From contig NZ_AP022577.1 in NCBI RefSeq assembly GCF_010730955.1, positions 5,084,001-5,148,000 of the forward strand: 64,000 bases of DNA, read 5' to 3'. The stretch's first letter is position 1, and the number at the start of each line of letters is the position of its first letter. This stretch comes from Mycolicibacterium aubagnense (GTDB taxonomy: Bacteria; Actinomycetota; Actinomycetes; Mycobacteriales; Mycobacteriaceae). Shown in pieces: positions 16,584-32,991 of the stretch. The position numbers were made by a program, and so were the translations under genes. Under the pieces are notes generated by a model that was not told the origin of the DNA, did not search any database, and saw nothing but the letters and a program-made list of their open reading frames with translations.

Positions 16584-17186
16584 CTAGCTCCAGGAATAGC
16601 CGGCCCGGAGGCGGGCGGCGATGATCTCGAACTTGTCGCGTTCGAGGATCGCGCCTTCGCGGCGGATGCCTTCCTCGGGCACATCGAGCACCCGGTCGAG
16701 TCGCACCCAGCTGGCGCGTCCCTCGTAGTCCCAGCTGCCGGAGCCGATGCCCACCCAGTCGGGGTCGCCCTGGTACCGGTCCTGGCTGGACACCATCAGG
16801 CCCAGCAGCGTCGTGCGGTCGCGACCCACCACCAGCACGGGGCGGTCCTTGCCGCGGGTCGGGTCGTCTTCGTAGACGACCCAGGTCCAGACGATCTCGC
16901 CGGGGTCGGCCTTGCCGTCCAGGTCGGGCGAGTAGACGATGCGCCGGGCGCGGTGCGCGGTGGGGACGATGTTCTCGGTGACCGGCCGTCCCGCGGTGAT
17001 GGCCGCCTGCGGCTCCGCCGGAACCGCGCCGAGCGCGGTCAGTCCCACTTCGATGCCGAACCGGATCCCCTGCTGGATGGTCCGAGACAGCCCGTCAGGC
17101 TGCTGCAGATTGCGGATGAGCTTGGGCGCCTCGTTGAACACCAGTTGTTCCGCGAAACGCTGGAACGTCCTCCACTGCGACGCCAT
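16584..17186 (-). CDS. PemK/MazF-like toxin-fold protein (Rv2405 type)
   Basis: The 200-residue protein carries a MazF/PemK-like SH3 barrel in its C-terminal two-thirds: GEIVWTWVVYEDDPTRGKDRPVLVVGRD, then LLGLMVSSQ and SWVRLDRVLDV. A helical N-terminal extension of about 85 residues precedes it. Classic MazF is an endoribonuclease of about 110 residues; no antitoxin gene is adjacent, so toxicity is doubtful. The ATG at 17186 is preferred because TATGCT (17194-17199) ends 7 bases before it, a leaderless arrangement. Confidence 0.75.
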   Translation of the reverse strand: MASQWRTFQRFAEQLVFNEAPKLIRNLQQPDGLSRTIQQGIRFGIEVGLTALGAVPAEPQAAITAGRPVTENIVPTAHRARRIVYSPDLDGKADPGEIVWTWVVYEDDPTRGKDRPVLVVGRDRTTLLGLMVSSQDRYQGDPDWVGIGSGSWDYEGRASWVRLDRVLDVPEEGIRREGAILERDKFEIIAARLRAGYSWS

Positions 17187-17298
17187 GACTTCGAGCATAG
17201 GGGAGTTTCCGGCCCGCGATTTAGCCGCCGGGGTCCTCGCTAGATACCCTGGTAGTCGCGCGTGATACGCGCGGACCCATCGTCACCAGGAGATTCCC

Positions 17299-19198: not shown

Positions 19199-19960
19199 CT
19201 ACGCAGCGTGGTGCGGGCCCGCTGAGTGGTGGTGCGGGTGCAAGCCGGGGATCATCATCGGCACGTCGTCGCGGTAGTGCCGGTAGGAATCGCCGAGGCT
19301 CGCCACCAGATCGTGCTCCTCGAGCTGTACCGCGATCAGGATGTATCCGGTGGTCGCCAGCGAGAACATCAAGTGCCCCGCCGTCATCGTCGGGGTGGCC
19401 CAGAACGCCACGATGAAGCCGACCATGATCGGGTGCCGAACCACCCGGTAGAACAGCGTGGTCCGGAAAGCCAAGTCGCGGTAGGGCTCTCCACGCCAGG
19501 CCAGATACACCTGCCGCAGCCCGAAGAGATCGAAGTGGTTGATCATGAACGTCGACGTCAGCACGATCGCCCAGCCCGCCCAGAACAGGGTCAGCAGCAC
19601 GTAGCGCCCGGCCGGTGCGCTGACGTGCCAGATGACCTGGGGCATGGTCCGCCACTGCCAGTAGAGCAGGCCCAGCAGCAGGCTCGACATCAGGACGTAG
19701 GTGCTGCGTTCGATGGACTGCGGCACGATGCGCGTCCACATCCGTTTGAACGCCGGCCGCGCCATCACGCTGTGTTGCACCGCGAACAGGCCGAGCAGGA
19801 TCAGGTTGACCACCACCGCCTCGCCGATCGATGCGGTGATCCCATGATCGACCGTGCGGGGCACCACCACGTTGCCCACGAAGCCGATGGCATAGAGGAA
19901 CGAGACCAGGAACACCGCGTAACACAGCGCGCCGTAGCCAAGTGTCAGATAGCGCTTCAT
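19199..19960 (-). CDS. mddA: MddA-like methanethiol S-methyltransferase (NnrU/isoprenylcysteine methyltransferase-like membrane protein)
   Basis: This 253-residue membrane protein has six or so hydrophobic helices and a C-terminal YRVVRHPIMVGFIVAFWATPTMTAGHLMFS motif followed by EEHDLVASLGDSYRHYRDDVPMM, the pattern of MddA-type methyltransferases. MddA makes dimethyl sulfide from methanethiol and S-adenosylmethionine; M. tuberculosis has a proven member. GGAGG 5 bases before ATG 19960 fixes the start. It lies next to the encapsulin/desulfurase genes, so a sulfur role is likely. A related membrane methyltransferase specificity is the alternative. Confidence 0.75.
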   Translation of the reverse strand: MKRYLTLGYGALCYAVFLVSFLYAIGFVGNVVVPRTVDHGITASIGEAVVVNLILLGLFAVQHSVMARPAFKRMWTRIVPQSIERSTYVLMSSLLLGLLYWQWRTMPQVIWHVSAPAGRYVLLTLFWAGWAIVLTSTFMINHFDLFGLRQVYLAWRGEPYRDLAFRTTLFYRVVRHPIMVGFIVAFWATPTMTAGHLMFSLATTGYILIAVQLEEHDLVASLGDSYRHYRDDVPMMIPGLHPHHHSAGPHHAA

Positions 19961-20217
19961 CCTGTCCTCCGATTCTCGGAAATGTTCCGGTGACGCCGTC
20001 CGCACCGGTCGACTTGCACGCAGTGTCGGGGCAGGCCCTAGATGCGGCCTGGATGGCGGAAACGAATGATGTGCGGCAGCCCGACCGCAGCGTGGGAGGA
20101 GGGGCCGGCAGACTGCCGGTCCGTGAAGCCATACCTGGTGCCGCAGCCCCTGGTCACATGCTCAATGTATGCCTAAATCGGCCGGGTGGGAATGGCCCGA
20201 GCCGGCGCCGAGCAGAC
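19961..20217. other. intergenic region with no gene seen
   Basis: Together with the hairpin at 20218-20257 and 44 more bases, this is a gap of about 340 bases between two minus-strand genes. It must hold the mddA promoter. No conserved ORF, RNA gene or repeat was recognised. Confidence 0.5.
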
Positions 20218-20257
20218 GTGAAGACCCTCAAATTCTGATGAATTTGAGGGTCTTCAC
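20218..20257. terminator. hairpin terminator of the encapsulin-desulfurase operon
   Basis: A perfect 18-base stem (GTGAAGACCCTCAAATTC with its complement) and a TGAT loop lie 45 bases downstream of the desulfurase stop on the minus strand. Confidence 0.85.
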
Positions 20258-20301: not shown

Positions 20302-22164
20302 TTACGGGCTGCCCTCGGCGATCCGGCGGACCGCGTCGATGAACACGTCGATCTCCTCGAACGTGTTGTAGAACGCGAACGACGGACGCACCGTCGCTTC
20401 GAGTCCCAGACGCCGCAGGATGGGCTGGGCACAGTGATGCCCGGCCCGCACCGCGATGCCCTCGGCGTTCAGCGCCTTGCCGACCTCGAGTGGTTCGTGC
20501 CCGGCCAACACGAAGGACAGCACGCTGGCCTTCTCGTCGGCCGTGCCCACGAGCCGCACCCCCGGAATGGCCGCCAACCGCGGGGTGGCGTACTCCAGCA
20601 GGGCGTGCTCGTACGCCGCAATTCGTTCGATGCCAATGCGTTCCACATACCGGATCGCCTCGCCGAGCCCGACCGCGTCGGCGATGTTGCCGGTGCCGGC
20701 CTCGAACTTGTTCGGCGGTCCCTGGAACACCGAACGCTCCAGCGTCACGTCGGCGATCATGTTGCCGCCGCCCTGCCAGGGCGGTGTTTCGGCCAGCACG
20801 TCCTCGCGTCCGTACAGCACCCCGATGCCCGTCGGCCCGAATATCTTGTGCCCGGAGAACACGAAGAAATCCGCACCGAGTTCGGCGACATCGATCGGGA
20901 TGTGCGGGACGGACTGCGCACCGTCGATCAGCACGCGGGCCCCGTAGCGGTGGCCCAGTTCGACGATGGTCTTGACCGGCGTCACCGTGCCCAACGCATT
21001 CGAAACCTGCGTGGCCGCAACCAGTTTCGTCCGCGGACCCAGTAGGTCCTCGAACTCGCCGAGCAGCAGGTTGCCCGCGTCGTCGACCGGCGCGACTTTG
21101 ATCACCGCGCCCGTCTGCTGTGCAATCAGCTGCCACGGAACGATATTGGCGTGGTGCTCCAGGTGGGTGATGACGATCTCGTCACCCGGGCCCAGGTGCT
21201 TGCCACCCCACGAGTACGCCACCAGGTTGATGGCCTCGGTGGTGCCGCGAACGAAGATGATCTCTTCGGTCTTCGACGCCCCGATGAACCGGCGAACCGC
21301 CTCGCGGGCGTCCTCGTAGGCATCCGTGGCCCGCGCCGCCAACTCATGCGCCGCGCGGTGGATGTTGGAGTTCTCGTGGGCGTAGAAGTACGCCAACCGG
21401 TCGATGACCGACTGCGGCTTCTGCGTGGTCGCCGCGTTGTCGAACCAGATCAGCGGCTTGCCGTTGACCGTCTCCTTCAGGATCGGGAAATCGGCGCGGA
21501 TCGCGTGGACGTCGAAGACCTCGTGATCATCCCGAATGGACGGCACCGGTTCGACGGGCTCAGCAGCCACGGCCGGGGACTGCAGGAAGTAGTAATTCCC
21601 GGCATCCTCGGACGGTTCCGGGGAATCGGTCCAGTTGAGCTGCGGCACCGAAGGGACGGCACCCGACCAGGTCGGTGCGGAGCCGCGCTGGGGCGAGCGA
21701 AGCGACGGGGAAGGGCTCAGTGCGGGGGGAGCCGACGGTGGAGCCGACGCCAGCACGCCCGGCACCGTCGGGACCAGACGCGTCAGGGGCGAGCGAAGCG
21801 ACGGGGAGAGGTCTGGCACGGCGAACGCCTCCAGCCCACCGAACGGCGCGACCGGGCTCACCGCATTACCGCGCGGTGCGACCGGCGCCGTGCCTGGCGG
21901 ATTCCCTTCCGGCCCAGGCGAAGTCGGGGCCGGCGCGAACAGCTCCGGCACCGAAACGAACTCGGCCGGCGTGCCCGGGTGTGCCAGACCGGCGGCAGTG
22001 GCGCCCGCCGACGTCCCGGTGGTCGCATCCGGGGCCACCCCACGCGGTGCCACCTGGGTGGTCACCGGCGGGCTGTCCGGACCGGGCCGGAAGCTGGTGG
22101 CGAACAACTGGCTGGCCAGTGTCGACAGTTCCGCGTCGCTCAGTGGCTGGTCACTTGTACTCAT
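20302..22164 (-). CDS. cysteine desulfurase with long disordered N-terminal cargo-loading region
   Basis: The 620-residue protein combines a SufS-like (group II) cysteine desulfurase core from about residue 217 with an N-terminal extension of about 215 residues rich in Pro, Ala and Ser. PLP is held by Lys440 (VFSGHKIFGP), and Cys578 (GHHCAQP) is the persulfide nucleophile; it is the only Cys in the protein. It abstracts sulfur from cysteine, giving alanine. The ATG at 22164 overlaps the shell gene by 14 bases. Extensions of this kind target desulfurases into family 2A encapsulins; the helix at residues 8-25 (LSDAELSTLASQLFATSF) is a candidate docking element. Two copies of a genomic repeat encode SPSLRSP in the extension. 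Confidence 0.93.
   Translation of the reverse strand: MSTSDQPLSDAELSTLASQLFATSFRPGPDSPPVTTQVAPRGVAPDATTGTSAGATAAGLAHPGTPAEFVSVPELFAPAPTSPGPEGNPPGTAPVAPRGNAVSPVAPFGGLEAFAVPDLSPSLRSPLTRLVPTVPGVLASAPPSAPPALSPSPSLRSPQRGSAPTWSGAVPSVPQLNWTDSPEPSEDAGNYYFLQSPAVAAEPVEPVPSIRDDHEVFDVHAIRADFPILKETVNGKPLIWFDNAATTQKPQSVIDRLAYFYAHENSNIHRAAHELAARATDAYEDAREAVRRFIGASKTEEIIFVRGTTEAINLVAYSWGGKHLGPGDEIVITHLEHHANIVPWQLIAQQTGAVIKVAPVDDAGNLLLGEFEDLLGPRTKLVAATQVSNALGTVTPVKTIVELGHRYGARVLIDGAQSVPHIPIDVAELGADFFVFSGHKIFGPTGIGVLYGREDVLAETPPWQGGGNMIADVTLERSVFQGPPNKFEAGTGNIADAVGLGEAIRYVERIGIERIAAYEHALLEYATPRLAAIPGVRLVGTADEKASVLSFVLAGHEPLEVGKALNAEGIAVRAGHHCAQPILRRLGLEATVRPSFAFYNTFEEIDVFIDAVRRIAEGSP
21691..21710 (+). repeat. 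dispersed 20-base repeat, copy 1
   Basis: GGGCGAGCGAAGCGACGGGG lies within the desulfurase N-terminal extension and is read on the minus strand as part of SPSLRSP. An identical copy lies at 21787-21806 and close copies at 31811-31830 and 47899-47918. Confidence 0.85.
21787..21806 (+). repeat. dispersed 20-base repeat, copy 2
   Basis: The 20 bases are identical to 21691-21710 and in the same reading frame of the desulfurase extension, 96 bases (32 codons) apart. Confidence 0.85.
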
Positions 22165-23074
22165 GGAAGTGGTCCACTCCGACGTCCTCGAGGACTGCCA
22201 GCGCATCGTCGGTGAGCACCGCCAGCGACGAGTACAGCGTGACCAGGTAGGACGCGATGGCCGACCGGTTGATGCCGGTGAAGCGGACCGACAGGCCCGG
22301 GGCCTGCTCGCCGACCAGGCCGGGCTGGAACAGGCCGACCACGCCCTGGCGCTCCTCGCCGGTGCGGACCAGGATGAACTTCGTCTTCCCGTCCACGACC
22401 GGCACCTTGTCCGACGGGATGATCGGGATTCCGCGCCAGGTGATGAACTGGGCGCCGAACAGGCTGACCACTGGTGGCGGCACGCCACGACGGGTGGCTT
22501 CCCGGCCGAATGCCGCCACCCCGAGCGGGTTGGTCAGGAAGAACGCGGGGGTCTTCCACACCTTGGTGATCAGCGAGTCGAGATCATCGGGGGTCGGCGT
22601 GCCGCGCAGCGTCTGGATGGTCTGCTCGGGAGTGACCTGCGACAGCAACCCGTACTCCGGGTTGTTGATCAGCTCGGACTCCTGGCGTTCCTTGATGGTC
22701 TCGATGGTCAGGCGCAGCTGCTGGGCGACCTGGTCGTGCGGGCTGGAGTACAGGTCGGACACCCGGGTGTGCACGTCGAGCAGCGTCGAGATGGACCGCA
22801 GCGTGTACTCGCGCGGGCTCGTCTCGTAGTCGACGTAGGTCTCCGGCAGCGGATCCTCGTTGCCGGAACCCTGCTCGGCGTGGATGGCGACCTGCTCGGG
22901 GTTCACCACGCGGTTGACGCGGTAGATACCGGCCTCGACGGGGACCCAGCTCAGCAGGTGCAGCAGGAATCGCGGCGTGATGGTCGACAGTTGCGGAACT
23001 GTCTTGGTGGCATTGGCGAGCTGCCTTGCGGCGAGATCGCCGAGGGCCTGCGATTCGTTCTGCGCAGACGTCAT
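22151..23074 (-). CDS. family 2A encapsulin nanocompartment shell protein
   Basis: The 307-residue protein belongs to the SrpI / MMP-I / EshA-like family, HK97-fold proteins that self-assemble into icosahedral protein nanocompartments. Recognisable segments are LSTITPRFLLHLLSWVPVEAGIYRVNRV near the N-terminus, VDYETSPREYTLRSISTLLDVHTRVSDLYS, and the C-terminal GLSVRFTGINRSAIASYLVTLYSS. It contains no Cys and only the initiator Met. GGAGGTAG precedes the ATG, and a -10-like TATCGT lies at 23117-23122 on the minus strand. It is the first gene of a two-gene operon with the desulfurase cargo. The shell could sequester persulfide or store sulfur. Confidence 0.93.
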   Translation of the reverse strand: MTSAQNESQALGDLAARQLANATKTVPQLSTITPRFLLHLLSWVPVEAGIYRVNRVVNPEQVAIHAEQGSGNEDPLPETYVDYETSPREYTLRSISTLLDVHTRVSDLYSSPHDQVAQQLRLTIETIKERQESELINNPEYGLLSQVTPEQTIQTLRGTPTPDDLDSLITKVWKTPAFFLTNPLGVAAFGREATRRGVPPPVVSLFGAQFITWRGIPIIPSDKVPVVDGKTKFILVRTGEERQGVVGLFQPGLVGEQAPGLSVRFTGINRSAIASYLVTLYSSLAVLTDDALAVLEDVGVDHFHEYK

Positions 23075-23218: not shown

Positions 23219-23224
23219 TATGGT
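23219..23224 (+). promoter_or_regulatory. -10 box of the polycysteine leader transcript
   Basis: TATGGT (TANNNT) ends 7 bases before the ATG at 23232, placing the predicted transcription start at the ATG itself, i.e. a leaderless leader peptide. Confidence 0.65.
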
Positions 23225-23231
23225 AGGCGGC

Positions 23232-23309
23232 ATGACCCACGACGGATCGCTGCGCATGCCCATGCGGCGCTGCTTCGTCGTGCCGTGTTGTTGTTGTTGT
23301 TGTTGTTGA
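23232..23309 (+). CDS. polycysteine leader peptide (25 aa), putative cysteine sensor
   Basis: The ORF encodes 25 residues: MTHDGSLRMPMRRCFVVP followed by seven consecutive Cys codons (all TGT) and TGA. The -10 box TATGGT ends 7 bases before the ATG, so it should be translated from a leaderless mRNA. In mycobacteria, leaderless polycysteine small proteins are known to attenuate translation of downstream sulfur genes according to cysteine supply. The downstream gene is the cysteine-free TQXA protein, 93 bases further on. A possible sequestering stem pairs TTCTGG (23348-23353) with CCAGAA (23385-23390) at the ribosome-binding region. Confidence 0.88.
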   Translation: MTHDGSLRMPMRRCFVVPCCCCCCC

Positions 23310-23402
23310 TTTTCTGACGCCGGCCCTCTGCGTTCTGCCCGCCCATCTTCTGGCGGAGCACGTATACGCGCTGTTCACGCACCTCCAGAAAGCAACACAG
23401 CA

Positions 23403-24641
23403 ATGTCCTCATCTTTGCTCGCACCCACCCGCACCTCCGTCGCGGTCCGCCGTACCGTGCGCCGGGACGCCGAGATCACCCGGATGACCCGCTACCGCGG
23501 CGGCACCTATTCGCCGACGGTCGACACCGTCGTGTTCACCGACGGGACGACGGCGCGCACCGACCTGATCCGGCTCAACCCAAACATCGATGCGTACTCG
23601 CTCGACTTCCAGGGCGTGGCCCCGACCCGGCCCTCCCAGTACCGGCCGGCGAACTGGTCAGCGGTCCCCAACGTGGCGGCGCGTGCCTTCGAGGCCGAGG
23701 TGGACTGGATCATCCGCAACTCGTATCCCACCCTGGGGACGGTCGAGTTGAGTCGCCGGGTCCGGGCGGCCGGTCACCTGTTCGGTGACGCGCATCTGGC
23801 CGAGCATGAGGCCATCGCCGCGACGCAGGCCGCGATCTGGCATTTCACCAACGGCCTGCGCTTGGACAACCGCCCCCTCAACGTGCCGGTCGCGGTCACT
23901 CCGGAACCGGGCGCCATCACCTTCGAGTTCGATGGTGAACCTCAATTGGGCAGCTACACCGTCGAATTGACGAGCGACACGGCCGTCTCGCTGGTGCTCC
24001 AGAAGTCGGTCGACGGGACGTCGTGGCGCGAGGTCGCCGCGTCGGGACTCAACGTCGCTGCCGGCTACGGGCGCCACCGCCGGGGCCTCGGCGTCGGGGC
24101 CACCGCCTCGGACAGCCGCCCGGGCCGCCAGCACCGCGGGTACCGCTTCTACCGGCTCCAGGTCCTCGCCGACAGCGGGGCATTCGTCGACATCGAAGAC
24201 GTGACCTTCACGCTCCACGGATCCGGCCATTACCGGAACGCCGAACGTGTTGTCGCGCTGTACAACTACCTCGTCGCCGGTGCCGAGACGGCGCGCCGGC
24301 TGACGGTGGTGCCGCGGCTGGTCACCGACCGCGCGGTGGCAGGCGACGTCGTCGGCCCGTTCCGGTTCGAGGCCACCGATGCCGCGACGCTCACGGCGGT
24401 GGGTGGCACGCTCGTCGACACGGCAGGGGAGCCGATCACCACACCGGTGGTCCCCGGTAGCGACATCTACCTGCATCCGGCATCGGGGGTTCGACAGGTG
24501 ACCGTCACCGCGAGTGTGCCTGCGGCACAGAACGGTTTCGGCGGCCGAGTCATCACCGGCGTGGCGCATGACAGCCGCCTGACGCCGGTTGCCCTCGCCG
24601 TGCCGACCCCGACCGTCATCGATTTCGAGCTCACCTTCTAG
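23403..24641 (+). CDS. TQXA-domain protein lacking cysteine
   Basis: The 412-residue protein has a TQXA domain: TYSPTVDTVVFTDG, then DAYSLDF (residues 64-70) and TQAAIWHFTNG with Gln142. A beta-rich region with a discoidin/galactose-binding look (LVLQKSVDGTSWREV ... YRFYRLQVLADSGAFVDIEDVTF) follows, and then a Val/Thr-rich C-terminal domain. In canonical TQXA proteins a Cys in a YCID-like motif forms a thioester with the Gln and is used for adhesion; here that position is Ser66 and the whole protein has no Cys and two Met. No obvious signal peptide, LPXTG motif or membrane anchor is seen. It lies behind the polycysteine leader. Confidence 0.8.
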   Translation: MSSSLLAPTRTSVAVRRTVRRDAEITRMTRYRGGTYSPTVDTVVFTDGTTARTDLIRLNPNIDAYSLDFQGVAPTRPSQYRPANWSAVPNVAARAFEAEVDWIIRNSYPTLGTVELSRRVRAAGHLFGDAHLAEHEAIAATQAAIWHFTNGLRLDNRPLNVPVAVTPEPGAITFEFDGEPQLGSYTVELTSDTAVSLVLQKSVDGTSWREVAASGLNVAAGYGRHRRGLGVGATASDSRPGRQHRGYRFYRLQVLADSGAFVDIEDVTFTLHGSGHYRNAERVVALYNYLVAGAETARRLTVVPRLVTDRAVAGDVVGPFRFEATDAATLTAVGGTLVDTAGEPITTPVVPGSDIYLHPASGVRQVTVTASVPAAQNGFGGRVITGVAHDSRLTPVALAVPTPTVIDFELTF

Positions 24642-27118: not shown

Positions 27119-27211
27119 ATGCACGCAGCGTCCGGCACTACCGAGGGCCACATCCTGGCTCTCATTGCCGTGGGTACCCGCGCTGTTGCTGACGTCGCCT
27201 GTTGTCGCTGA
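27119..27211 (+). CDS. Cys-Cys-ending leader peptide (30 aa) upstream of subI
   Basis: The ORF encodes 30 residues beginning MHAASGTTEGHILALI and ending ADVACCR-stop, with two adjacent Cys codons close to the stop. A -10 box with 7-base spacing predicts a leaderless mRNA. The subI start is 120 bases downstream. Between them CCTTGC (27279-27284) can pair with GCAAGG (27314-27319), which contains part of the AAGGAAGG ribosome-binding site, with ACGG/CCGT nested inside. This arrangement fits cysteine-dependent attenuation of sulfate uptake. Confidence 0.72.
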   Translation: MHAASGTTEGHILALIAVGTRAVADVACCR

Positions 27212-27331: not shown

Positions 27332-28369
27332 ATGCACAAGATCATCAAGAACTGGCGGCCCGTCACAGCTGTGACAGCCGTTGTGTCCGCCACCATGGTG
27401 CTCGCCGCCTGCGGTGGCGGTGCGAGCGACACCGCCGGCGGAGGTGGACAGTCTGGCGCCGATACCACCCTGACCCTGGTGGCCTATGCCGTGCCGGAGC
27501 CCGGCTGGAGCAAGATCATCCCGGCCTTCGCCGCCACCCCCGAAGGCAAGGGCGTCGCTGTCACGACGTCCTACGGCGCCTCCGGCGACCAGTCGCGCAA
27601 GGTCGAGTCGGGAGCGCCCGCCGACATCGTCAACTTCTCGGTGGAGCCGGACGTCACCCGCCTGGTGAAGGCGGGCAAGGTCAGCAAGGACTGGAACGCC
27701 GATGCCACCAAGGGCATCCCGTTCGGTTCGGTGGTGTCGCTGGTTGTGCGCAAGGGCAACCCCAAGGGCATCAAGGACTGGGACGACCTGCTCAAGCCGG
27801 GCATCGAGGTCGTCACCCCGAGCCCGCTGAGCTCGGGTTCGGCCAAGTGGAACCTGCTGGCGCCATACGCCGCGAAGAGCAACGGGGGCAAGGACGCTCA
27901 GGCCGGCCTCGACTACATCCTGCAGCTGGTCACCGAGCACATCAAGACCCGTCCGGGTTCGGGCCGCGAAGCCACCGATCTGTTCCTGCACGGGACCGGT
28001 GACGTGTTGATCAGCTACGAGAACGAGGCGATCAACGTCGAGCGTCAGGGCAAGGACGTTCAGCACCTCAACCCGCCGCAGACGTTCAAGATCGAGAACC
28101 CGGTGGCGGTCGTGACCTCCGGTCCGCACCAGGACAAGGCCAACGCGCTGAAGAACTTCCTCTACACCGCTGAGGGACAGAAGGCGTGGGCGCAGGCCGG
28201 GTTCCGTCCGGTCGATCCCGCGGTGAGTGCCGAGTTCGCCAAGGACTTCCCGACCCCGGAGAAGCTGTGGACCATCGCTGATCTCGGTGGATGGAAGACC
28301 GTCGATCCGGCGTTGTTCGACAAGGACAATGGCAGCATTACCAAGATCTATAAGCAGGCCACTGGATGA
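27332..28369 (+). CDS. subI: sulfate ABC transporter substrate-binding lipoprotein
   Basis: The 345-residue protein carries a lipoprotein signal with lipobox LAAC (Cys27), then a type 2 periplasmic-binding fold typical of sulfate/thiosulfate-binding proteins (LVAYAVPEPGWSKIIPAF, TTSYGASGDQSRKVESGAPADIVNFS, GSAKWNLLAPYAA). It captures sulfate outside the membrane for CysTWA. The mature protein has no Met, and its only Cys is the lipidated one. AAGGAAGG precedes the ATG. Its stop overlaps cysT (ATGA). It matches Rv2400c. Confidence 0.95.
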   Translation: MHKIIKNWRPVTAVTAVVSATMVLAACGGGASDTAGGGGQSGADTTLTLVAYAVPEPGWSKIIPAFAATPEGKGVAVTTSYGASGDQSRKVESGAPADIVNFSVEPDVTRLVKAGKVSKDWNADATKGIPFGSVVSLVVRKGNPKGIKDWDDLLKPGIEVVTPSPLSSGSAKWNLLAPYAAKSNGGKDAQAGLDYILQLVTEHIKTRPGSGREATDLFLHGTGDVLISYENEAINVERQGKDVQHLNPPQTFKIENPVAVVTSGPHQDKANALKNFLYTAEGQKAWAQAGFRPVDPAVSAEFAKDFPTPEKLWTIADLGGWKTVDPALFDKDNGSITKIYKQATG

Positions 28370-29250
28370 CAACCTCGGTTGAGTTCGACGACGCCCCGGC
28401 CCGGCCAGAGACCACCAGCAATGGTGGCTCGGCCGGGCCGGGGTCCGGCGTGCGGCAGGCGTTCGGCACCACGTCGTTGCGGGTAGGAGCGGCGAGTATC
28501 TGGCTGTCCGTGATCGTGCTCCTGCCGCTGGCCGCCATCCTGGTGCAGTCCGCCCGCGGTGGCTGGGGGTACTTCTGGACCGCGATCACGTCGAACTCGG
28601 CTCTGGCGTCATTTCGGGTGACGCTGGAGGTCTCGGCGGCTGTCGCGCTCATCAACCTGGTTTTCGGCCTGCTGGTGGCGTGGGTGCTGACCCGGGACGA
28701 CTTCGTGGGCAAGCGTTTGGTCGACGCGGTCATCGACCTGCCGTTCGCGCTGCCGACCATCGTGGCCAGCCTCGTGATGCTGGCGCTGTACGGTCCGGCC
28801 AGTCCGGTGAATCTGCATCTGCAGCACACCAAGTGGGGCATCGGAATCGCGCTGCTGTTCGTGACACTGCCGTTCGTGGTGCGGTCGGTGCAGCCGGTGC
28901 TGCTCGAACTGGACCACGAGACCGAAGAGGCGGCCGCGTCGCTGGGCGCCAACAACTTCGTGATCTTCACCAAGGTGGTGCTGCCGGCACTGCTGCCGTC
29001 ACTGCTGTCGGGCGCCGGTCTGGCCTTTTCCCGGGCCATCGGTGAGTTCGGTTCGGTGGTGCTCATCGGCGGCGCGGTGCCCGGCGAGACCGAGGTGTCG
29101 TCGCAGTGGATCCGCACCCTGATCGAGAACGACGACCCCACCGGTGCGGCCGCGATCTCGATTGTGCTGCTGGTGATTTCGTTCGTGGTGCTGTTCGTGT
29201 TGCGAATCATCGGATCGCGTGCGGCCAAACGTCAGGAGCTGGCCTCATGA
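28366..29250 (+). CDS. cysT: sulfate ABC transporter permease CysT
   Basis: A 294-residue inner-membrane permease with six membrane helices after a soluble N-terminal tail rich in Gly and Pro. The EAA loop (EEAAASLGANNFVIFTKVVLPALLP) that contacts the ATPase is clear. It forms the sulfate/thiosulfate channel with CysW. The ORF overlaps both subI and cysW by ATGA, so the four genes are translated in series. No Cys residue is present. Confidence 0.95.
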   Translation: MTTSVEFDDAPARPETTSNGGSAGPGSGVRQAFGTTSLRVGAASIWLSVIVLLPLAAILVQSARGGWGYFWTAITSNSALASFRVTLEVSAAVALINLVFGLLVAWVLTRDDFVGKRLVDAVIDLPFALPTIVASLVMLALYGPASPVNLHLQHTKWGIGIALLFVTLPFVVRSVQPVLLELDHETEEAAASLGANNFVIFTKVVLPALLPSLLSGAGLAFSRAIGEFGSVVLIGGAVPGETEVSSQWIRTLIENDDPTGAAAISIVLLVISFVVLFVLRIIGSRAAKRQELAS

Positions 29251-30059
29251 CCCTCTCGCCGGTGGTTCGCTACCTGACCCGGTACCTGGCGCTGGCCTAC
29301 ATCACGGTGCTCGTCATCGTGCCCGTCGGCCTGATCCTGTGGCGGACGTTCCAGCCTGGTCTGGGCGAGTTCTTCGCCCAGATCACCACGCCGGCAGCCG
29401 TTTCCGCGCTGCAGCTGACGTTGCTGGTCGTCGCCATCGTGGTGCCGCTGAACGTGCTGTTCGGGGTGCCGACCGCATTGGTGTTGGCCCGCAACCGGTT
29501 CCGCGGCAAGAGTGTGCTGCAAGCCGTGATCGACCTGCCGTTCGCGGTGTCGCCCGTCGTCGTCGGTGTCGCCCTGATCCTCTTGTGGGGGTCGGCCGGC
29601 CTGCTCGGCTTCGTCGAGCACAGTTGGGGTTTCAAGATCATCTTCGGTTTCCCCGGCATCGTGCTGGCCAGCATCTTCGTGACGGTGCCGTTCGTGATCC
29701 GCGAGGTCGAACCGGTGTTGCACGAACTGGGCACCGACCAGGAGGAAGCGGCTGCGACCCTCGGTGCGCAGTGGTGGCAGACGTTCTGGCGGATCACGCT
29801 GCCGTCCATCCGCTGGGGCCTGACGTACGGCATCGTGCTGACCGTCGCGCGCACACTGGGCGAGTACGGCGCCGTCATCATGGTGTCTTCCAATCTGCCC
29901 GGCAAATCTCAGACCCTCACCCTGCTGGTCTCCGATCGGTACAACCGCGGCGCCGAATACGGCGCGTACGCCATGTCGACAGTGCTCATGGCGGTCGCGG
30001 TGATCGTGCTGGTCGTGCAGGTGATCCTCGACGCCCGGCGTGCCCGGGCGGCACAATAG
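29247..30059 (+). CDS. cysW: sulfate ABC transporter permease CysW
   Basis: A 270-residue permease with six predicted helices and the EAA loop EEAAATLGAQWWQTFWRITLPSI. ATG 29247 overlaps the cysT stop (ATGA) and gives the normal family length. It partners CysT and CysA in sulfate import. No Cys residue is present. Confidence 0.95.
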   Translation: MTLSPVVRYLTRYLALAYITVLVIVPVGLILWRTFQPGLGEFFAQITTPAAVSALQLTLLVVAIVVPLNVLFGVPTALVLARNRFRGKSVLQAVIDLPFAVSPVVVGVALILLWGSAGLLGFVEHSWGFKIIFGFPGIVLASIFVTVPFVIREVEPVLHELGTDQEEAAATLGAQWWQTFWRITLPSIRWGLTYGIVLTVARTLGEYGAVIMVSSNLPGKSQTLTLLVSDRYNRGAEYGAYAMSTVLMAVAVIVLVVQVILDARRARAAQ

Positions 30060-30081
30060 CTTTCGATAGGAAGAACCGAAC

Positions 30082-31143
<1,062 letters not shown>

Positions 31144-31213: not shown

Positions 31214-31798
31214 TCAGATGTACATCGCCGGGTCGATGTAGGTCGTCGGGTCGACGGCGGGCTCGCGTTGCTTCTCCGTGCGTGGACGCACGATCGCCGG
31301 AATGCCGGTCGCGATCGAGTCAGCCGGAACATCGTGTGTCACAACGGCATTCGCACCGATGGCAGAGTCGTCGCCGACGACGATGGGGCCCAGCACCTTG
31401 GCGCCGGCGCCGACCGTCACACGGTTGCCGATGGTGGGGTGGCGCTTGCCCTTGTTGAGACTGCGGCCGCCCAGCGTCACGCCGTGGTAGAGCATGACGT
31501 CGTCGCCGATCTCGGTGGTCTCGCCGATCACGACGCCCATGCCGTGGTCGATGAAGAACCGCCGGCCGATGGTCGCCCCCGGGTGAATCTCGATGCCGGT
31601 GAGGAAGCGGGTCACCTGAGCCAGCACGCGGGCCGGTCCGCGCCATGCCGGGCGGGCCCACAGCCGGTGGGCCAGGCGGTGCGACCAGATGGCATGCAGG
31701 CCCGAATACACCAGGGCGTTCTCGACGTCTCCGCGCCCGGCCGGGTCGTGGCTGCGTGCGTTGTCCAGGTCCTCGCGGAGCCTGGCGAACAGCGTCAT
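31214..31798 (-). CDS. cysE: serine O-acetyltransferase
   Basis: The 194-residue protein acetylates L-serine with acetyl-CoA to O-acetylserine, the carbon skeleton for cysteine. It has the left-handed beta-helix hexapeptide repeats ([22 protein letters not shown] ... [17 protein letters not shown]) and catalytic His in DHGMG. It is the short form without the long N-terminal domain of E. coli CysE. It follows cysK by 36 bases and both are minus strand. In M. tuberculosis this pair lies elsewhere (Rv2334-Rv2335). Confidence 0.94.
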
Positions 31799-31810
31799 GA
31801 TTTGTCTATT

Positions 31811-31830
31811 TCCCGTCGCTTCGCTCGCCC
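31811..31830 (-). repeat. dispersed 20-base repeat, copy 3
   Basis: On the minus strand this reads GGGCGAGCGAAGCGACGGGA, differing from the desulfurase copies only at the last base. It occupies most of the 36-base gap between cysK and cysE. Confidence 0.8.
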
Positions 31831-31834
31831 GGTA

Positions 31835-32770
31835 TCAGTCCCGAATGTGCTCGTACAGCGCTGTGGAGACGTACCGCTCGCCGAAGTCAGGGACGATCAC
31901 CACGATGAGCTTGCCGGCGTTCTCGGGACGCTTGGCCAGCTCCAGCGCCGCCCACACGTTGGCGCCCGCCGAGATGCCACCCAGAATGCCCTCTTCGGTG
32001 CCCAGCGCGCGCGCCACCTCGATGGCGTCAGGGAACGCGACATCGATGATCTCGTCGTACACAGAGCGGTCCAGCACCTCGGGGACGAAGTTTGCACCGA
32101 GGCCCTGAATCTTGTGCGGTCCGGCCTGGCCGCCGGTGAGGATGGGGGAGTCGACGGGCTCGACGCCGACGATCTTCACGTCCGGCTTGCGGCGCTTGAG
32201 AACGTGCCCGACGCCGGTGAGGGTGCCGCCGGTGCCGATGCCGGCGACGAAGATGTCGACCCGGCCGTCCGTGTCGGCCCAGACCTCTTCGGCGGTCGTC
32301 TGCTCGTGGATCGCGGGGTTGGCCGGGTTGGCGAACTGGTCAGCGGCCACGGAGTTCGGGGTCTCGGACAGGATCTGCTTGGCCTTGGCGACCGCGCCGG
32401 CCATGCCCTCGGCGCCCGGCGTCAGCACGATCTCGGCGCCGTATGCGCGCAACATCACCCGGCGTTCGAGGGACATGGTCTCCGGCATGGTCAGGATGAC
32501 CTTGTAGCCGCGGGCCGCGCCGACGAGGGCCAGTGCGATGCCGGTGTTGCCGCTGGTGGCCTCGACGATGGTGCCACCGGGCTTGAGCTCGCCGGACTTC
32601 TCCGCGGCATCGACGATCGCCACGCCGATGCGGTCCTTCACGCTGTTGGCGGGGTTGTAGAACTCCAGCTTGGCGACGACCTCGGCACCAGCGTCCTCGG
32701 TCAACCGGTTGAGCCGGACCAGCGGGGTGCGCCCGACCAACTCCGTGACATTGGCGTAGATCTTGCCCAT
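31835..32770 (-). CDS. cysK: cysteine synthase (O-acetylserine sulfhydrylase)
   Basis: The 311-residue PLP enzyme condenses O-acetylserine with sulfide to give cysteine. PLP Lys lies in [11 protein letters not shown], the TSGNTG loop binds substrate, and GTGGTLTG binds the PLP phosphate. The ATG at 32770 is preceded by GAGAGG; the open frame continues to 32881 but the extension is low-complexity and not conserved. It is the first gene of a cysK-cysE operon and no polycysteine leader is visible upstream. Close to M. tuberculosis CysK1. Confidence 0.95.
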
Positions 32771-32991
32771 CGACAACCTCTCGTCATACGCAAGCTCGCC
32801 GCGTGGGCGGGCTCGCTGGCGGTCCTGCTGGTGAAATTGTGGGTGCCCACGCGGCACCGTGGTGCCACGCACGACCGTCACGCCGCGACAGGCACCTGCC
32901 GAATCTGCTGAATAGCAGGTGCTCAGTCAAGGGTTTCGATCATCACAAAATCTATCTGCTTGGGACAACGCGTTACCTACGGGTGGGTATT

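Follow-up and report, generated by a model that had tools for sequence, protein, structure and literature searches.

Introduction

Among the closest described relatives of the system treated here is the shell protein SrpI of Synechococcus elongatus PCC 7942 with its cysteine desulfurase CyD, for which the accessible part of PMC8049743 reports that loading depends on the extension of the cargo and that the encapsulated enzyme has an almost sevenfold higher catalytic rate. The same text cites the co-enrichment of a shell and a desulfurase in Mycobacterium avium paratuberculosis. Of the 1281 desulfurase operons counted for family 2A, 193 belong to Actinobacteria (PMC8346489, available portion), and membrane association has been reported for the mycobacterial shell, Major membrane protein I (MMP-I), in the available text of PMC6917596. 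Here, we analyze a stretch of 64,000 nucleotides from Mycolicibacterium aubagnense (contig NZ_AP022577.1, positions 5,084,001 to 5,148,000; the window), in which a family 2A shell gene and its desulfurase are accompanied by a third, divergent gene encoding a protein similar to thioester domains (TED-like), which is itself preceded by a leader open reading frame (ORF) rich in cysteine codons.

Parts of this arrangement were seen earlier. In 2005, peptides with cysteine runs were described before mycobacterial cysteine operons, those of M. avium among them, and MAP2122/ML0840 were listed as additional hypothetical genes of these operons with no other reliable homologs; in the portion available, no hairpins were reported as conserved, and the question of how these operons are regulated was not answered (PMC1262725). 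Judging from position and species, MAP2122/ML0840 would correspond to the TED-like gene. In Mycobacterium smegmatis, polycysteine leaderless ORFs have reportedly been described by Canestrari in 2020, with ribosome stalling said to unmask a ribosome-binding site. The accessible text of PMC13236596 cites that work as translation attenuation.

The encapsulin-desulfurase pair is therefore not new, as both its type and its occurrence in this group have been described, and the leader and the gene behind it were themselves noted in 2005. The new part is the identity of the third gene, a TED fold without its thioester residues, and its link to the encapsulin. Among the papers listed in searches of the open-licence literature, none, judged by term counts or titles, tied an encapsulin to a thioester-domain protein.

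Results

A divergent TED-like gene is a constant neighbor of the shell gene

The cassette consists of three genes:

22151..23074, minus strand: 307-residue shell of a family 2A encapsulin, SrpI/MMP-I type; NF041162, PF19307, PDB matches, and composition
20302..22164, minus strand: cargo, SufS-type cysteine desulfurase, 620 residues, single cysteine C578; NF041166 and 8kg1
23403..24641, plus strand: TED-like protein, 412 residues, S66 and T394 at the thioester positions, CBM32/discoidin-like insert at about residues 158-276; PF08341 and TIGR03934

The preliminary description of this DNA had dealt with the shell and its cargo (20302-23074) and missed the TED-like gene and its leader, which lie just beyond these positions and are constant neighbors of the pair. 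For comparison, we used the best 80 of 118 confirmed relatives fetched with a shell (the named loci). One of them, L067, had no upstream sequence, so that TED counts refer to 79 loci, and 4 others (L030, L032, L040, and L072) ended 72-280 bases past the shell, so that cargo counts refer to 76. A divergent gene with a TED/TQXA domain was found directly upstream of the shell in all 79 named loci with upstream sequence.

This association extended to the 396 genomes of the genus that were examined. A first pass over 148 of these gave a shell with a TED-like gene in 48 of 48 cases, and in the full set a full-length TED-like gene was present in all 130 genomes whose shell exceeded the cut-off; it was adjacent and divergent at 131 of 133 shell loci. 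Of the 2 exceptions, one is a shell located where its contig ends (G765), and the other is the second of two copies in G098. Among the remaining 266 genomes, a full-length TED-like gene was present in only 6, exactly those with a partial shell match, and in none of the 260 without any shell match. In 2 of the 6 (G641 and G741), the shell was cut by contig ends; in G076 it was split in two; in G105 a shell fragment with a stop accompanied an unbroken TED-like frame of 435 residues; and in G558 and G613 the full TED-like gene stood beside only the first 35-36 shell codons. Short TED relics were seen in some genomes without a shell match, for example beside cargo remnants in G057 and ahead of cysK-cysE in G139, and beside a bit of shell in G089. 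As the genomes are related, these counts do not represent independent events. The TED-like gene is under purifying selection; the ratio of nonsynonymous to synonymous substitution rates for cysK and cysE in a leprosy-group pair was unusable.

The 36 shell codons beside the TED-like gene in G613 were fused in frame to an ORF of 527 residues that, by eye, resembles a permease (L222, 5847-7430). In this genome, 1.8 Mb separate them from the cargo gene, which follows a further copy of these 36 codons (L223), and contigs of G558 ended at the same junction point. A plasmid location of the cassette was also considered and rejected: shell-like matches came from 32 records, and the 30 of these that were listed were all non-mycobacterial, while the TED-like gene had no plasmid match.

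The TED-like protein has lost both thioester residues

The divergent protein combines a TED fold with the TQxxIW motif, and the bond-forming cysteine and glutamine of TED proteins are replaced by serine and threonine. A homology search found 950 sequences, of which 120 were listed and 56, including that of the window, were aligned. Ser66 occupied the position of the thioester cysteine in 56 of 56 TED-like sequences, while 17 of 18 ordinary TEDs kept the cysteine; Thr394, which aligns with the glutamine of ordinary TEDs, was likewise invariant. For the glutamine comparison, 14 of the 56 sequences were aligned with 17 ordinary TEDs; the latter had been chosen by their cysteine motif, so that only their glutamine column is an unbiased count. 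The TED profile gave no match to PDB sequences at E values up to 1, and Foldseek alone placed no TED among the 50 matches listed; VIA-align did rank TED structures for the model of the protein.

The protein appears to be cytoplasmic. No hydrophobic stretch was found within the first 60 residues of 79 TED-like proteins (best 15-residue hydrophobicity means of -0.07 to 1.64, median 0.67), nor, by eye, in the reading frame that stays open ahead of the start codon in the window, while many ordinary TEDs of the order show a secretion signal by eye. The start was assigned by similarity, and 21 of 80 loci have an ATG within the preceding 34 bases, so that the true start may lie earlier there.

A cysteine-codon leader precedes the TED-like gene

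The region between the divergent shell and TED-like genes contains the following elements:

23219..23224, plus strand: TATGGT, similar to a -10 element and placed seven bases ahead of the leader's ATG, a predicted leaderless arrangement; from sequence
23232..23309, plus strand: leaderless leader ORF MTHDGSLRMPMRRCFVVPCCCCCCC with 8 cysteines, upstream of the TED-like gene; an equivalent in 79 of 79 named loci
23295..23392, plus strand: predicted helix joining 23295-23323, where the leader has its cysteine codons and stop, to the ribosome-binding AGAAAG at 23387-23392; from duplex folding

A cysteine-rich ORF of leaderless type preceded the TED-like gene in all 80 loci (79 named loci and the window), with a TANNNT box just upstream, and most of these ORFs ended in a run of cysteines. 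In L033 the ORF chosen at first was not the expected one, and a stricter rule found the leader in all 80. With its predicted start, the window's ORF has the layout of the polycysteine leaderless attenuators, that is, a leaderless ORF ending in cysteine codons upstream of a gene. The feature is directional, as runs of at least 3 cysteine codons were present in TED sense in 75 of 80 intergenic regions and in shell sense in 1 of 80. It is also rare, since a scan of both strands of the window returned only 2 such leader ORFs, one at the TED-like gene and one at a sulfate transporter.

By prediction, the cysteine codons and stop region of the leader form base pairs with the TED-like gene's ribosome-binding region. 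Folded against the 34 bases that lead up to the TED start, this segment gave a mean of -16.2 kcal/mol, compared with -10.9 for shuffled and -9.9 for reversed sequences, in an exploratory test that was chosen after the fold of the window had been seen and whose shuffles keep single-base composition only. In 64 of 80 loci (the other 16 were left out by the pattern), at least 4 of the 6 bases of an AGGAAG/AGAAAG-like motif were predicted to be paired. For the third base of this motif, the predicted pair was G-C in 34 of these 64 loci, A-U in 28, and G-U in 1, with no pair in 1. An independent count by pattern, which left out 22 of 80 loci, found 55 of 58 matched, 2 of G-U type, and 1 mismatched (Fisher p 6e-13).

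The three proteins are poor in sulfur

In the window, the products of the three genes add up to 1339 residues, with 1 cysteine and 5 methionines, 3 of the latter being initiators. The shell has no cysteine at all, and its sole methionine is the start. Relatives follow the same trend: the shell was free of cysteine in 71 of 76, the cargo had a single cysteine in 71 of 76, and the TED-like proteins had no cysteine in 39 of 79 and one to six in the others. Median internal cysteine plus methionine contents of the mycobacterial proteins were 0.0% for shells, 0.51% for cargo domains, and 0.72% for TED-like proteins; the same kind of count in other genera gave 1.32-2.96% for 7 shells and 1.75-3.22% for 8 cargo domains. 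Elsewhere in the genome, the values were 2.26% for the other SufS, 3.11% for LepA, 3.53% for the neighboring glycosidase, and 4.49% for the methanethiol S-methyltransferase MddA. Nearby sulfur genes were also low (subI 0.58%, cysA 0.85%, cysK 1.44%, and cysE 1.55%). Bulk production of the three cassette proteins during sulfur shortage would explain their composition.

Shell and cargo form a typical family 2A pair

The preliminary description had proposed a SrpI/MMP-I-type shell overlapping a desulfurase gene by 14 bases, and this was confirmed, with both proteins above the cut-offs of NCBI curated profiles and the overlap exact:

22151..22164, minus strand: overlap of shell and cargo genes, 14 bases, ATGAGTACAAGTGA; window sequence and 75 of 76 relatives

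The shell scored 499 bits against NF041162 (cut-off 380) and matched PF19307 as its only Pfam family. It also barely passed the family 2B model NF041163 (400.5 bits, cut-off 400), in a match that covers only the shared shell part (model positions 209-449 of 450); as it lacks a cNMP-binding domain, the shell belongs to family 2A. PDB matches were 9ksl, 8wol, 8won, 8t6r, and 6x8m, of which the first three carry the name Major membrane protein I. Across 307 shell residues, 9ksl and 8wol scored about 615 bits; 8won scored 576 bits across 288. By analogy with solved relatives, the shell would adopt the HK97 fold and assemble into a T=1 60-mer. The cargo gene was present in all 76 loci with enough sequence, and the overlap of 14 bases recurred in 75 of the 76 named relatives readable there, being 4 bases in the remaining one. 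Given the curated cut-offs and the close relatives in the PDB, the pair in itself is ordinary.

The cargo scored 865 bits against NF041166 (cut-off 800), within the SufS subfamily, and its residues 205-619 matched the desulfurase chain of 8kg1 with 873 bits. C578 and K440, which we take to be catalytic, were invariant among 13 aligned sequences. The host genome contains one further close SufS-like gene (47% identity) and three weaker matches. Two further features belong to this gene:

21520..22164, minus strand: N-terminal extension of the cargo, residues 1-215, with two short motif-like stretches; composition and comparison with CyD motifs
20218..20257, minus strand: perfect hairpin of 18 base pairs, 44 bases past the cargo stop codon, without a U-tract on the cargo strand; from folding

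The proposal of a disordered N-terminus of about 215 residues held for its length, as the catalytic domain begins near residue 216. Its middle part, with about 20% proline, 18% alanine, and 11% glycine in 77 sequences, is compatible with disorder, and the AlphaFold2 model, poor throughout (mean predicted local distance difference test score 43.5), does not settle this point. By eye, the stretches LSTLASQLF and DAGNYYFLQS resemble the CyD motifs LARLANEFFS and AASPYYFLDG; the exact pattern of the second was missing in 41 of 77 cargo sequences, which keep a looser Y.FL. A gene next to the shell, a score over the family cut-off, a long extension, and both family motifs thus mark the desulfurase as a family 2A cargo, and the profile matches and gene context bear out an encapsulin with such a cargo in sulfur surroundings. 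By analogy with S. elongatus, the shell would retain the desulfurase through the extension. The strong terminator proposed to end the pair has a perfect stem (z = -7.15 for the 121-base stretch folded) and lacks a U-tract on the cargo strand, which leaves it plausible.

The cargo linker also contains 2 perfect copies of a dispersed 21-mer, GGGGCGAGCGAAGCGACGGGG, at 21690-21710 and 21786-21806. They read as in-frame insertions (SPSLRSP) and are absent from L009, the closest relative compared. The genome holds 63 copies with at most 2 mismatches, some in tandem at a spacing of about 30 bases, and no copy of the reversed pattern. A GERSDG stretch near the cargo N-terminus of L026 may represent this repeat in the opposite reading direction.

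Genomic surroundings of the cassette

The three cassette genes are constant while their outer surroundings vary. In the 80 named loci, these comprised gh15 with a sulfate transporter (19), gh15 as the only one of these seen (3), cysK-cysE behind the TED-like gene (37), cysK-cysE behind the cargo (7), and other or too short flanks (14). The following neighbors were found in the window:

19199..20005, minus strand: methanethiol S-methyltransferase MddA, clade-specific context; NF045656, 380 bits, cut-off 270
27119..27211, plus strand: second leaderless cysteine leader ORF, ending Cys-Cys-Arg, ahead of the sulfate transporter; window scan
27332..31143, plus strand: sulfate-type ABC transporter genes; Pfam for the first and last genes
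31214..32881, minus strand: serine acetyltransferase (epsC/cysE) and cysteine synthase (cysK); NCBIfam

The transporter genes are presumably subI-cysT-cysW-cysA. The larger sulfur island suggested earlier stands insofar as sulfur genes do surround the pair; the arrangement with the sulfate transporter, however, is clade specific (19 of 80 named loci), and we do not count this cluster as part of the system. MddA was rejected as a member as well, being found behind the cargo in only 6 of 80 named loci and not being poor in sulfur. A gene with a PemK/MazF-like domain lies near lepA (16584-17198) and is also present in some close relatives.

Discussion

A proposed sulfur-limitation module and its alternatives

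Taken together, we consider it reasonably likely that the locus is a sulfur-limitation module, consisting of an encapsulated desulfurase and a TED-like partner under a cysteine-codon leader, with the partner probably serving the shell. In such a module, the shell would pack the SufS-type desulfurase inside, held by its N-terminal extension. Scarcity of cysteine would stall ribosomes on the leader's cysteine codons and open the ribosome-binding region of the TED-like gene, and all three proteins would be made in quantity when sulfur is short. The TED-like protein would stay in the cytoplasm and bind, tether, or stabilize the shell by its fold, not by thioester chemistry. A more specific version, in which it decorates or tethers the shell through its fold and discoidin-like insert as the third part of a machine made on a cue of cysteine starvation, is possible but more doubtful. 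The membrane association reported for MMP-I makes a tethering role an attractive guess.

Several observations weigh against the module. The composition argument is weakened by PemK, no sulfur protein, which is similarly sulfur-poor at 0.99%, so that low cysteine and methionine content alone is no proof of sulfur sparing. As to the leader, the two states of the covarying pair follow 2 large clades, so that few independent changes may underlie it, and RNAalifold found no conserved leader structure (-3.5 against -3.7 +/- 2.2 for shuffled columns in the 20 sequences of the window's clade, and 0 for the rest). The shell's own upstream region gave no clear conserved element when searched for a promoter footprint. 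Finally, the position of the TED-like gene allows 2 other explanations of its role.

It might be a cysteine-operon protein that serves synthesis by CysK and CysE, with the encapsulin as a mere neighbor. In 37 of 80 named loci, the order is leader-TED-cysK-cysE, with the TED-like gene immediately before cysK and in the same orientation, which means that it could serve cysteine synthesis; the cysteine leader would suit this role, and the available text of PMC1262725 describes an additional gene of a cysteine operon. Against this, the next mapped gene behind it is not cysK but an opposite-strand gh15 in the window and in 22 of 80 named loci (in two of these, 2-3 kb of unmapped sequence lie between), and cysK and cysE survive as unbroken matches where shell and full TED-like gene are gone (L218 and L220). 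We regard this explanation as unlikely.

The locus might also be an ordinary family 2A encapsulin, complete and typical as a pair, next to which the TED-like gene is a bystander sharing the upstream region by descent. In line with this, a TED-like gene was missing from the available flanks of all 8 family 2A loci over the cut-off that came from outside the genus, although some flanks were short (about 460 bases upstream of the shell in L185). In 2 of these loci (L181 and L187), cysK-cysE stood beside the shell. Moreover, G098 holds 2 shell-cargo copies (L190 and L191) with a TED-like gene at only one, and the truly broken shells of 4 genomes (G076, G105, G558, and G613) show that the gene can outlast the shell. 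A bystander would not be expected at 131 of 133 loci and in every genome with a shell over the cut-off, across several outer contexts, nor to be under purifying selection and missing in full length from all 260 genomes without a shell match. This explanation seems to us, if anything, slightly less likely than the previous one.

That the protein is a secreted adhesin with a miscalled start, unrelated to the shell's intracellular work, is very improbable: most described TEDs are indeed surface proteins with secretion signals (PMC4450167, accessible part), yet neither the N-termini nor the frame upstream of the window's start show a hydrophobic stretch, and both thioester residues are lost.

Research on leprosy and Johne's disease has dealt with MMP-I as an antigen, and it is also a known encapsulin, for which a constant third gene offers a concrete handle. 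The cysteine-codon leader and the sulfur-poor composition predict, independently of each other, the conditions under which the system would operate. In addition, an adhesin fold has here lost its chemistry, and apparently its export, and is yet kept under selection alongside a capsid-like shell. If the three-part machine is real, the TED-like protein would belong to a new class of encapsulin accessories and put the TED fold to a new use, and tethering by the TED-like protein could explain why the shell was first discovered as a "major membrane protein."

Comparison with known systems

With SrpI-CyD of S. elongatus PCC 7942, the locus shares the shell family, a desulfurase cargo, a long disordered extension with two motifs, and a sulfur setting; the accessible part of PMC8049743 mentions no TED-like partner. 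Unlike SrpI-CyD, the mycobacterial shells contain almost no cysteine or methionine, and in most cases the desulfurase has only one cysteine.

The system of MMP-I, the 35-kDa antigen (MAP2121c with MAP2120c; 9ksl, 8wol, and 8won), has the same shell and cargo families and a very similar shell. A third gene, a sulfur-sparing composition, and leader pairing are not mentioned in those portions of its descriptions that were available. The polycysteine attenuators of M. smegmatis, whose mechanism is given here as it is reportedly understood, are alike in their leaderless ORF ending in cysteine codons and may also share a masked ribosome-binding region, as the pairing predicts. They differ in that the gene that would be controlled here encodes an encapsulin-linked TED-like protein.

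Compared with MAP2122/ML0840, the leader is of the same kind, to which we add 80 loci, a thioester-dead TED fold, the encapsulin link, and a predicted pairing; the account of these genes in the accessible text of PMC1262725 gives neither fold nor encapsulin link. Finally, the class II TEDs BaTIE (6fwv) and EfmTIE86 (6fwy), as described in the available part of PMC6194298, share the model fold, the TQxxIW helix motif, and a beta-sandwich insert. Unlike these, the mycobacterial protein has serine and threonine in place of the bond-forming cysteine and glutamine, no evident signal peptide, and a CBM32/discoidin insert.

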